This document shows, in pieces, positions 6,086-9,678 of a DNA stretch of 34,939 bases. Made by a program: the position numbers and the translations under genes. Every line of letters begins with the position of its first letter. The first letter of the stretch is position 1. Source of the stretch: Alphaproteobacteria bacterium. Lineage in GTDB: Bacteria; Pseudomonadota; Alphaproteobacteria; Rhodobacterales; Rhodobacteraceae. The notes beneath the pieces are model-generated. The model made no database searches. It worked only from the letters and a program-made list of their open reading frames with translations, and was not told the DNA's origin. The stretch lies in contig JAUIIC010000012.1 in NCBI GenBank assembly GCA_030431935.1, positions 1-34,939 on the forward strand, written 5' to 3'.

Positions 6086-6150
6086 GCCCCCGCTGCTACG
6101 CGGCGCGCGGGACAGTTGCAAGCGGGCCCGGTTTGCCCCTATCTCGGGTC

Positions 6151-6780
6151 ATGGCACAGGATACCGAACCCAGTCTGATCCGGCTTGCACGCGCGTCGTC
6201 CTCGGCGCCCGAGGAGGCACCCGTGGCGCTCGATCTCGGCGCGCGGGTGCGCGAGTTGCGCAAGGAGCGGAACTGGACGCTGGAACAGGCGGCCACCCAT
6301 GCCGGACTGGCACGCTCGACCCTGTCCAAGATCGAGAACGGGCAGATGTCGCCAACCTACGAGGCGCTGAAGAAGCTGGCCGTGGGGCTGGGTATTCCTG
6401 TGCCGCAGTTGTTCACGCCGCCCCGCGCCGCACAGGTCAGCGGGCGTCTGGCCGTGACGCGCTCGGGCGAGGGCGCGGCGCATCCCACCACGACCTATGA
6501 GCACGAACTGCTGGCGGGCGCGCTGACAAACAAGGCCATGCTGCCCTATCGCGCCCGCGTGCGGGCCCGCAGCTTCGAGGAATTCGACGGCTGGGTTCGC
6601 CACGATGGCGAAGAGTTCCTGTATGTCCTGACCGGCGCGATACGGCTTATCACCGAGTTCTATGCTCCGATCGAGATGCGCAGGGGCGACAGCGCCTATT
6701 ACGACGCCACCATGGGCCACAACGTCATCTCGGTCAGCGACGAGGATGCGACGATCCTCTGGGTGACGGCGCTGGGGTAG
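6151..6780 (+). CDS. XRE-family transcriptional regulator with C-terminal cupin domain
   Basis: A 209-residue regulator. Residues ~30-88 form the XRE/Cro helix-turn-helix (LGARVRELRKERNWTLEQAA, then LARSTLSKIENGQMSPTYEAL). Residues ~130-205 form a cupin_2 barrel (EEFLYVLTGAIRL, MRRGDSAYYDATMGHNV), which in this family binds a small effector. The start is the ATG at 6151 (MAQDTEPS); an in-frame TTG at 6133 would add six residues and cannot be excluded. Members of this family often control divergent metabolic or transport genes, so the ligase-DsbA-MFS operon starting 65 bases away is the obvious target (inference). The His residues of metal cupins are only partly evident. A perfect inverted repeat follows the stop at once. 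Confidence 0.9.
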   Translation: MAQDTEPSLIRLARASSSAPEEAPVALDLGARVRELRKERNWTLEQAATHAGLARSTLSKIENGQMSPTYEALKKLAVGLGIPVPQLFTPPRAAQVSGRLAVTRSGEGAAHPTTTYEHELLAGALTNKAMLPYRARVRARSFEEFDGWVRHDGEEFLYVLTGAIRLITEFYAPIEMRRGDSAYYDATMGHNVISVSDEDATILWVTALG

Positions 6781-6820: not shown

Positions 6821-8638
6821 TCAGTCCTCTTCGTACCACCAGACATCGGGCTGCCAGCCGATCCAGTCGCCGTAGATCGGGATCACCTCGGGGAACTTCA
6901 GTTCCTTGGCGTGGGCGATGCGCGAGATGTTCCACTGGTAGATCGGGATCACGTAGCGCCCGGTGGTCAGCACCCGGTCGAGCGCGCGCGTGGCGGCCAG
7001 GAACTCGTCGCGCGATCCGGCGTTCAGGATCTTGTCGATCATCGCCTCGGCCGCCGGAGAGTTCATGCCCATCCAGTTGCGGGTTCCCGGCTCGGTCACC
7101 CCGGCGGACCCCCAGTAGAGCATCTGCTCATTGCCGGGCGACAGGCTGAGGCCGCGGCGGTAGTAGGTCATGTCGAAGTCGTACCCGGTGGTGCGTTCCT
7201 TGTACTGGGCGCTGTCGATGGTGCTGATGGTCGCCGTGACGCCAAGGCGCTGCAGCGCCTCGACATAGATGTCCATGATGGCGCTGTTCTCGGCAGAGCC
7301 CTGCGACAGCAGGATCTCGAAGGTAAAGGGCTTGCCCTCGGCGTTCTTCATCACGCCGTCCTGCACGGTCCAGCCGGCCTCTGCCATCAGGTCGATGGCC
7401 TTCGCGATATTGGCGCGGTTGCGCACGCTGCCGTCCGAGACGGGCAGCGCATAGCCGTCCAGCGCACCCGGCAGAAGCTCGTCCGCGAAGGGTTCGAGGA
7501 ACTCGCGCACCAGCCCCTCGGCCGGGCCGTCGCGCATCCCCAGCACCGAGTTCGAGAAATAGCTGGTGATGCGCGGCTGCACGCCGCCGGTCTGGGTCTG
7601 GTTGATGAACTCGAAGTTGAAGGCGTGGATCATCGCATCCCGCACCCGCCAGTCGGCAAAGACGTCGCGGCGGGTGTTCATCACGAAGCCGGTGATGCCG
7701 GATGGCCGCTGGTGCGGGATCACGGATTTCACGACGTCGCCACTGTCGATGGCGGGGAAATCGTACTGCTCGTCCCACTTGGCGGCGTTGAACTCGCGGT
7801 TCGAGGTCAGTTCGCCGGCCTTGAACGCCTCGAACTGGGCGGTGCCGTCGGCGTAGAACTCCATCCGCACTTCGTCGAGGTTGTAGGTGCCACGCCGGAA
7901 GGGAAGGTCGGCGCCCCAGTACTCCGGGTTGCGCTTGAGCGAGACGAAGCGCCCGGCCTCGTAATCGTCGATCACGTAGGGGCCGGTGGTTATGGGGATG
8001 TTGTCGAGCCCGGATTCGGCGAAGTCGATGCCGTCCCACTGGGCCTTCTGCAGGATGGGCCGCATCCCGAGGATCAGCGGAAGCTCGCGGTCGACGGTGT
8101 TGAAGGTGAAGCGCACGGTGCGCGGGCCGACCTGTTCGGCGCTCTCCACCTTGTCCCAGGCGCCGTGATAGCGGGGATGGCCGACGGTGCCGAGGGTCTC
8201 GTAGGACCACAGCACGTCCTCGACCGTCACCGGGGCGCCGTCCGAGAATCGGGCTTCCTCGCGCAGGGTGAATTCCACCCAGCTGCGGTCGTCCGGGGTT
8301 TCGACCGATTCGGCGAGCAGGCCGTAGAGCGAGAAGGGTTCGTCCCAGGAGCGTCCCATCAGCGACTCGGCCGTGAGGTAGCTGAGCTGCCAGGGCACCG
8401 AACCCTTCAGGATGTAGGAATTGAGGCTGTCGAAGCTGCCGACCTCGCCGGTGACGATTCGCCCGCCCTTGGGCGCATCGGGGTTCACATAGGGGAGCGC
8501 CACAAAATCCGGTGGCAGTTGTGGGTCCCCATACATAGCTATGCCGTGTTGCGGTTCTGCCGCAGCGAACGAACCGGCGGTTGCGATCGCCGCCGCCGCG
8601 ATGGCCGCGGCGATGCGGGTACTGAGATTCCGTTTCAT
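6821..8638 (-). CDS. Periplasmic oligopeptide-binding protein, SBP_bac_5 family (YejA-like)
   Basis: A 605-residue extracellular solute-binding protein of the ABC peptide importer class. It begins with a Sec signal peptide (basic MKRNLSTR, then an Ala-rich core, probable cleavage near SFAAA/EPQ). The mature N-terminus HGIAMYGDPQLPPDF and the NPDAPKGGRI segment resemble YejA, the binding component for microcin C-like and other oligopeptides; EARFSDGAPVTVEDVLWSYE near residue 130 is the usual family-5 signature. Length matches YejA. No yejB/E/F-type permease or ATPase gene lies on either side: downstream is a terminator hairpin and a convergent regulator, upstream a non-coding stretch. It is therefore an orphan binding protein, presumably serving a transporter elsewhere. 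The peptide specificity is unknown. Confidence 0.93.
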   Translation of the reverse strand: MKRNLSTRIAAAIAAAAIATAGSFAAAEPQHGIAMYGDPQLPPDFVALPYVNPDAPKGGRIVTGEVGSFDSLNSYILKGSVPWQLSYLTAESLMGRSWDEPFSLYGLLAESVETPDDRSWVEFTLREEARFSDGAPVTVEDVLWSYETLGTVGHPRYHGAWDKVESAEQVGPRTVRFTFNTVDRELPLILGMRPILQKAQWDGIDFAESGLDNIPITTGPYVIDDYEAGRFVSLKRNPEYWGADLPFRRGTYNLDEVRMEFYADGTAQFEAFKAGELTSNREFNAAKWDEQYDFPAIDSGDVVKSVIPHQRPSGITGFVMNTRRDVFADWRVRDAMIHAFNFEFINQTQTGGVQPRITSYFSNSVLGMRDGPAEGLVREFLEPFADELLPGALDGYALPVSDGSVRNRANIAKAIDLMAEAGWTVQDGVMKNAEGKPFTFEILLSQGSAENSAIMDIYVEALQRLGVTATISTIDSAQYKERTTGYDFDMTYYRRGLSLSPGNEQMLYWGSAGVTEPGTRNWMGMNSPAAEAMIDKILNAGSRDEFLAATRALDRVLTTGRYVIPIYQWNISRIAHAKELKFPEVIPIYGDWIGWQPDVWWYEED

Positions 8639-8689: not shown

Positions 8690-8708
8690 GTTTGCAAGCA
8701 TTTCAAAC
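8690..8708. promoter_or_regulatory. 19-bp imperfect palindrome, candidate operator
   Basis: GTTTGCAAGCATTTCAAAC is symmetrical at seven of nine base pairs (GTTTGnAAnnnTTnCAAAC). It lies 52-70 bases upstream of the binding-protein start on the minus strand and ends 7 bases before the -35 of the plus-strand small-RNA promoter, so a bound regulator could affect either. No protein is assigned. Confidence 0.4.
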
Positions 8709-8715
8709 TTTTAGC

Positions 8716-8744
8716 TTGGACGGCGGATCAAGACTGCGTATAAA
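8716..8744 (+). promoter_or_regulatory. Sigma-70-type promoter for a predicted small RNA
   Basis: TTGGAC (8716-8721), a 17-base spacer and TATAAA (8739-8744). The -10 is near consensus and the spacing ideal; the -35 keeps only the TTG core. The expected start is about 8750-8752, and no open reading frame follows before the terminator at 8797. Confidence 0.55.
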
Positions 8745-8750
8745 CAAGGC

Positions 8751-8825
8751 CTGCTCGATAGGTTTCTTGCCTGTATGAAACCTGCCTCAATAACTGAACG
8801 CCGGCCTTGTGCCGGCGTTTTTTTT
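8751..8825 (+). ncRNA. Predicted two-hairpin trans-acting small RNA, about 75 nt
   Basis: A promoter (8716-8744) and a strong intrinsic terminator (8797-8825) enclose about 75 bases with no reading frame, in the 266-base gap between the divergent yejA-like and bdhA genes. The transcript would fold into a first hairpin, AGGTTTC (8760-8766) with GAAACCT (8777-8783), closing a 10-base loop with a UUGCCU core that could serve as seed. A short unpaired linker (CUCAAUAACUG) follows, then the terminator hairpin with a U-tail of the type bound by Hfq. The alternative is a 5' leader with an attenuator for bdhA, whose start codon lies 80 bases beyond the terminator. I do not recognise a named family. 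Confidence 0.55.
8797..8825 (+). terminator. Strong Rho-independent terminator
   Basis: Stem AACGCCGGC (8797-8805), 5-base loop CTTGT, and stem GCCGGCGTT (8811-8819), running into eight consecutive T (8818-8825). Orientation is plus, yet the only protein gene to the left is on the minus strand and starts here. That is the main evidence for a short plus-strand transcript ending at this point. Confidence 0.9.
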
Positions 8826-8904: not shown

Positions 8905-9678
8905 ATGACACTTGCGGGCAAGACGGCCGTCATCACCGGGTCGACATCGGGTATCGGGCTGGGGGTGGCCGAGGCGCTGGCGGCGGCGGGCGCGTCGGTG
9001 GTTCTGAACTCTTTCACCGACACCGAGGACGATCATGCGCTGGCCGCCCGAATCGCTGCGGACCACGGGGTGGAGGCGCGCTATGTCCGGGCCGACATGT
9101 CGAAGGGCGCGGACGCGCGTGCGTTGATCGAGGCGGCAGGCGCCTGCGATATCCTGGTGAACAACGCCGGCATCCAGCATGTCGCGCCGGTCGAGACCTT
9201 CCCGATGGACAAGTGGGACGCGATCATCGCGATCAACCTGTCGTCCGCTTTCCACACCACCGCCGCTGCCGTTCCGATGATGCGTGCCGCCGGCTGGGGG
9301 CGGATCGTCAACATCGCCTCGGCGCATGGCCTGCGCGCCTCACCCTACAAGTCGGCCTATATCTCGGCGAAACATGGCGTGATCGGGCTGACCAAGTCGG
9401 TCGCGCTTGAAACCGCGCGGGACCCGATCACGGTCAACGCGGTCTGTCCCGGCTACGTGTTGACGCCGCTGGTCGAGGCGCAGATCCCCGACCAGATGAA
9501 GACCCACGGCATGGACCGCGACACCGTGGTGCGCGAGGTGATGCTGGCCAAGCAGCCGTCCAAGGAATTCGCCACGGTCGAGCAGATCGGGGGCACCGTG
9601 GCCTTCCTGTGTTCCGACGCGGCGGCGCAGATCACCGGCACCACGATAAGCGTGGACGGCGGCTGGACCGCCCAATAG
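8905..9678 (+). CDS. bdhA: D-3-hydroxybutyrate dehydrogenase (SDR family)
   Basis: This 257-residue short-chain dehydrogenase oxidises (R)-3-hydroxybutyrate to acetoacetate with NAD+, a step in polyhydroxybutyrate turnover. Visible: Rossmann motif TGSTSGIGLG (11-20), NNAG (86-89), and the catalytic triad Ser139, Tyr152, Lys156 in NIASAHGLRASPYKSAY. The SAHGL segment, NNAGIQHVAPVE and KQPSKEFATVEQIG near the C-terminus are typical of bacterial 3-hydroxybutyrate dehydrogenases rather than general SDRs. The start at 8905 has the ribosome site AAAGGA eight bases upstream; an upstream in-frame TTG at 8809 overlaps the terminator and is rejected. The patatin gene begins 37 bases downstream, so the two probably share a transcript. 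Confidence 0.93.
   Translation: MTLAGKTAVITGSTSGIGLGVAEALAAAGASVVLNSFTDTEDDHALAARIAADHGVEARYVRADMSKGADARALIEAAGACDILVNNAGIQHVAPVETFPMDKWDAIIAINLSSAFHTTAAAVPMMRAAGWGRIVNIASAHGLRASPYKSAYISAKHGVIGLTKSVALETARDPITVNAVCPGYVLTPLVEAQIPDQMKTHGMDRDTVVREVMLAKQPSKEFATVEQIGGTVAFLCSDAAAQITGTTISVDGGWTAQ

Follow-up and report, generated by a model that had tools for sequence, protein, structure and literature searches.

Does the intergenic region between an oligopeptide-binding protein gene and bdhA in a member of the Rhodobacteraceae encode a small RNA, and if so, what does this RNA control? The region is part of a stretch of 34,939 nucleotides of contig JAUIIC010000012.1, here called the window. An initial annotation of the window, made from the sequence alone, placed a small RNA (sRNA) of about 75 nt in this region and suggested a role in metabolic control, based on the neighbouring genes. 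The features to which we refer are the following.

6821–8638, minus strand: divergent neighbour, an extracellular solute-binding protein (SBP) of family 5, yejA/oppA-like
8704–8714, plus strand: A/T-rich upstream element CAAACTTTTAG, directly upstream of the -35 element and conserved in most genera
8715–8720, plus strand: -35 element CTTGGA (TTG at 8716–8718, TTGGAC at 8716–8721)
8739–8744, plus strand: -10 element TATAAA, 17 bp after TTGGAC
8750–8825, plus strand: intergenic sRNA gene, about 75 nt, StsR-like, with a predicted start at 8750/8751
8751–8789, plus strand: almost invariant 39-nt core CTGCTCGATAGGTTTCTTGCCTGTATGAAACCTGCCTCA
8759–8784, plus strand: hairpin 1 as obtained by folding, an 8-bp stem UAGGUUUC/GAAACCUG with the 10-nt loop UUGCCUGUAU
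8768–8785, plus strand: pairing segment UGCCUGUAUGAAACCUGC, complement of the mraZ (dcw) leader/UpsM in other genera
8796–8825, plus strand: intrinsic terminator, a stem-loop with a 10-bp stem (8796–8820) and a run of eight T (8818–8825)
8905–9678, plus strand: downstream neighbour, 3-hydroxybutyrate dehydrogenase (bdhA; TIGR01963, 370.6 bits, over the cut-off)

Structure of the sRNA gene

The sRNA region folds with a z-score of -4.6 and beats all 200 shuffled sequences. A generic promoter scan returned no promoter, and a generic terminator scan returned one terminator where 0.8 were expected, which is at the level of chance. Since these scans perform no better than chance, the case for an sRNA gene rests on the fold and, above all, on conservation. 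Both bear out the predicted RNA of about 75 nt between the yejA-like gene and bdhA, on the strand opposite to the former. The length of the RNA is predicted to be 72–76 nt, depending on which end is picked within the T-run. Its +1 position (8750) is a C in the window copy and an A in 120 of 121 copies.

The hairpin with a 10-base loop that had been pointed out from the sequence is present. An alternative hairpin, CGAUAGGU/GCCUGUAUG, is the energy minimum only if upstream bases are included in the fold; from the true start, the hairpin UAGGUUUC/GAAACCUG wins, and the alternative was rejected. A small peptide starting from an ATG at 8775 was likewise dismissed, as indels in the linker disrupt its frame from one genus to the next, and no conserved reading frame runs through the sRNA, in agreement with the initial annotation.

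The 17-bp spacing upstream of the predicted -10 element was also confirmed, and the promoter is conserved across genera. The upstream element, CTTGG of the -35 element and TATAA of the -10 element are all kept at fixed spacing: positions -36 to -32 read C/T/T/G/G (1.2–1.8 bits), T/A/T/A/A is conserved at -12 to -8, and up to 1.7 bits are reached between -47 and -38 (60 genera). The upstream element may be an UP element, the site of a regulator or a site common with the divergent SBP promoter. Promoters recognised by RpoHI and RpoHII have been described as having TTG at -35 and TAT at about -12 (PMC10673084; PMC3441632). The spacing of TTG and TAT in the sRNA promoter is compatible with these sigma factors, but also with sigma-70. 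From this pattern, transcription of the sRNA by the stress sigma factors RpoHI/RpoHII appears plausible. The evidence is strong for a free-standing sRNA gene that has a promoter and a terminator of its own.

Conservation across the Rhodobacterales

A search that tolerated up to three mismatches, covering 390 genomes of the order Rhodobacterales, found the 39-nt core as a single copy in 389 genomes and in all 140 genera, with at least 150 copies being exact. The reversed pattern, used as a control, gave no matches. When 101 relatives were searched, the sRNA reached the threshold in 60 of 61 genomes of the same family, each representing one genus. A covariance model, whose training set included the window copy, gave this copy 101.9 bits (E 1.6e-26) as the sole match within the window. 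Within a single genus, that of genome G023, the sRNA is present in 124 of 125 genomes, and a 48-mer of the Paracoccus type exactly matches 56 named Paracoccus contigs. A homologue search across the class found nothing comparable outside the family, where the best score was 31.7 bits versus more than 100 inside; we regard these weaker matches as fortuitous or as due to the terminator.

Among 62 distinct copies, there is hardly any variation in the first 39 nt. No covariation test is possible for hairpin 1, because its stem is almost invariant. The stem of the terminator, which had been predicted together with its eight T, carries compensatory changes at five pairs (62 sequences). The near-fixed sequence of the core probably reflects overlapping constraints imposed by the hairpin, the duplex with UpsM described below and other targets such as the rpoE mRNA.

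Rfam holds no family for this sRNA, all families being below their thresholds. The 73-nt SorX (RF02784), from the same bacterial family, also consists of a hairpin, a C-rich linker and a terminator, but it is processed from the 3' UTR of an mRNA, its loop and linker differ in sequence, and it was rejected at 24.1 bits against a gathering score of 46.6. Also rejected were mmgR/suhB (RF00519; 17.3 against 41 bits) as well as BjrC1505 (RF02356) and Hrs13 (RF02631), both well below their gathering scores. These three share the generic layout of alphaproteobacterial sRNAs, and their matches rest mainly on the terminator. A phage or mobile origin was rejected, as there was no phage or viral match and plasmid matches were confined to large Paracoccus replicons.

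The main texts of the sRNA surveys in P. denitrificans, R. pomeroyi and R. sphaeroides make no mention of the locus. No link was established to 'Intergenic 134' or 'Intergenic 60' of Paracoccus denitrificans (PMC5107571). By its number, 'Intergenic 134' is located on chromosome 2, as are the sRNA copies of close relatives, but its reported matches in Streptomyces (PMC5107571) do not fit the sRNA. No P. denitrificans copy was named among the contigs matching the 48-mer.

Neighbouring genes

In about 55 of 60 genera, the SBP gene lies divergently next to the sRNA, and most genera have bdhA downstream, inside the fetched flank. Just past the 3' end of the SBP gene, at 6133–6780, the window encodes a regulator of the XRE-cupin type (HTH and cupin). 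The conserved neighbourhood is in favour of a metabolic regulator acting on the adjacent SBP and bdhA genes in trans or in cis, and in the window alone there is an 11-bp complementarity to codons 4–8 of bdhA. This latter site was rejected, as it tracks the Gly-Lys codons and shows no conservation at synonymous positions. Furthermore, the complementarity of the core to the start region of bdhA is at the level of shuffled cores (21.0 versus 20.3). The excess for the SBP gene is small (23.7 versus 19.8), and it is inflated because some of the scored stretches extend into the sRNA gene (maximum 104). The metabolic control proposed earlier is hence very unlikely, and the conserved place beside the SBP gene and bdhA looks like a shared position, not a target relation.

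Predicted pairing with the mraZ leader

When the core was searched against 62 relatives, a match of 15–20 nt to core positions 19–38 recurred at a second locus besides the sRNA gene. This locus is the leader of mraZ, which is the first gene of the dcw cluster and is followed by rsmH; the matching stretch runs antisense to the sRNA. With mraZ used as an anchor in 29 further genomes, 28 usable leaders were obtained, one per genus. A complement of 13–23 nt was present in 25 of them, mostly to core positions 18–38 and 170–250 nt upstream of mraZ. Three leaders had no clear site although the core is kept in these genomes: G008 (L058/L180), G014 (L051/L175) and G059 (L059/L171). On average, the complementarity of the core to the mraZ/dcw leader was 39.2, compared with 20.1 for shuffled cores, and across 36 leaders the hybrid energy of sRNA and leader was -38.5 versus -23.4 for shuffled leaders. 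Neither mraZ nor the UpsM leader was found in the assembly of the window itself, which is 84% complete and consists of 301 contigs.

The most diverged sRNA copy is that of G029 (L056:1983-2056), in which the usual UpsM site is lost. In this one case, the mraZ leader (L169) is complementary to sRNA nt 2–17, changed bases included. This is suggestive of a pairing site that has possibly moved to the 5' end of the sRNA.

A coincidental match between the mraZ leader and some unrelated conserved DNA or RNA element, or a leader or attenuator in place of a free sRNA, might be considered, given that the core is fixed well past the pairing segment and that a conserved partner was not found for its first 17 nt. 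We find this scarcely credible: in 25 of 28 genera, one and the same segment of the core is matched, and at the same place, and the RNA lies between a promoter of its own and a terminator that covaries, with bdhA located beyond the latter.

Geometry of the site in UpsM

The position of the site was analysed in genome G051, which we take to be R. sphaeroides 2.4.1. Here the UpsM sequence is found at 694636–694841, and the sRNA site corresponds to UpsM nt 54–71 (18 nt, one mismatch). UpsM (RSs0682) is itself an sRNA, derived from the dcw leader (PMC5089854); with a site in 25 of 28 genera, it is the pairing partner or target and not the sRNA studied here. It is 206 nt long, starts 268 nt before mraZ and gives rise to an RNase E fragment of 130 nt, in a process requiring Hfq and RpoHI or RpoHII (PMC5089854). 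These lengths, 206 and 130 nt, put the cut near UpsM nt 76, and thus presumably about 5 nt past the sRNA site.

The UpsM segment 3' of the site, in which this putative cut falls, forms base pairs with the 5' end of the leader, and the sRNA site lies in the loop thus enclosed. The enclosing stem covaries among 36 genera: the mean energy with each strand's own partner was -15.9 versus -12.7 ± 0.4 for permuted partners, and none of 5000 permutations was as good. Cofolding predicts that the binding of the sRNA breaks this stem.

Identity of the sRNA

StsR (formerly RSs0827) is an sRNA of Rhodobacter sphaeroides that targets UpsM and the rpoE mRNA; it is 72 nt long and dependent on RpoHI/RpoHII (PMC8307010). 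Binding of StsR to UpsM changes the structure of the latter and makes a previously double-stranded RNase E site accessible (PMC8307010; PMC8625941). The sRNA described here resembles StsR in its length of about 72 nt, its free-standing gene with an RpoH-compatible promoter and a terminator of its own, and its pairing, beside the RNase E site, with the UpsM/dcw leader. Judged by these features, the locus is very probably the orthologue of StsR.

The published pairing of StsR with the rpoE mRNA begins 10 nt after the start codon. An ungapped search for such pairing in rpoE of the congener G801 gave no strong site. The ChrR family was not found in G051. R. sphaeroides is known to have ChrR, so either the corresponding stretch is missing from the sequence covered, or the identification of G051 as this species is wrong.

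The old RSs number points to another place on the map. For other R. sphaeroides sRNAs, higher RSs numbers go with higher map coordinates: RSs0682 is found at 695 kb, RSs1543 at 1633 kb, RSs1624 at 1725 kb and RSs2461 at 2598 kb. RSs0827 is thus expected near 0.85 Mb, whereas the sRNA in G051 occupies positions 1443996–1444071 of chromosome 1 (L039:1997-2072), at 1.444 Mb. This counts mildly against the identity with StsR. Interpolation puts the locus near RSs1370, and a separately named second sRNA (about RSs1366–1370) could also pair with UpsM/dcw mRNA, StsR then being a different gene. An RSs1368 was reportedly listed in the first R. sphaeroides sRNA survey. Against this, the sRNA fits StsR in its length, in the type of its promoter and in its pairing with UpsM. 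Moreover, elsewhere in the G051 genome nothing but the sRNA locus matches UpsM nt 54–71, and a crude scan of 820–920 kb in G051 showed no rival sRNA. We therefore consider a second sRNA of this kind unlikely. It is about equally improbable that the locus represents a hyperconserved sRNA that defines the family, is distinct from StsR and likewise sets the cleavage of dcw/UpsM, in which case at least two sRNAs would converge on the control of cell division in the Rhodobacteraceae and the 39-nt core would be fixed by further partners.

Proposed role in the control of cell division

With StsR as the preferred identity, the sRNA of about 72–75 nt would be made from its own promoter, presumably by RpoHI/RpoHII, and would end at the intrinsic terminator, whose run of eight T at the 3' end would suit Hfq. 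Core nt 18–38 would then pair with the mraZ-dcw mRNA over 13–23 nt of its 5' leader, which is also the source of UpsM. This pairing may open the covarying stem, which carries the putative RNase E cut in its 3' strand. Cleavage by RNase E would follow, and the levels of dcw mRNA and UpsM would fall. As a consequence, division would slow under stress and in stationary phase, as others have shown in R. sphaeroides. The sRNA would thereby exert stress control of cell division through UpsM/dcw, in place of metabolic control, and its effect in the species of the window is expected to be the same.

What started as a guess from a single genome has thus grown to an RNA of the whole family, carried by essentially all sampled Rhodobacteraceae and absent from Rfam. 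In the dcw leader, its target site and the stem around this site coevolve. Its near-fixed core raises the question of what keeps nt 1–17 constant when only nt 18–38 meet UpsM. If the sRNA is StsR, the stress-to-cell-division switch of R. sphaeroides would be an ancestral device of the family.
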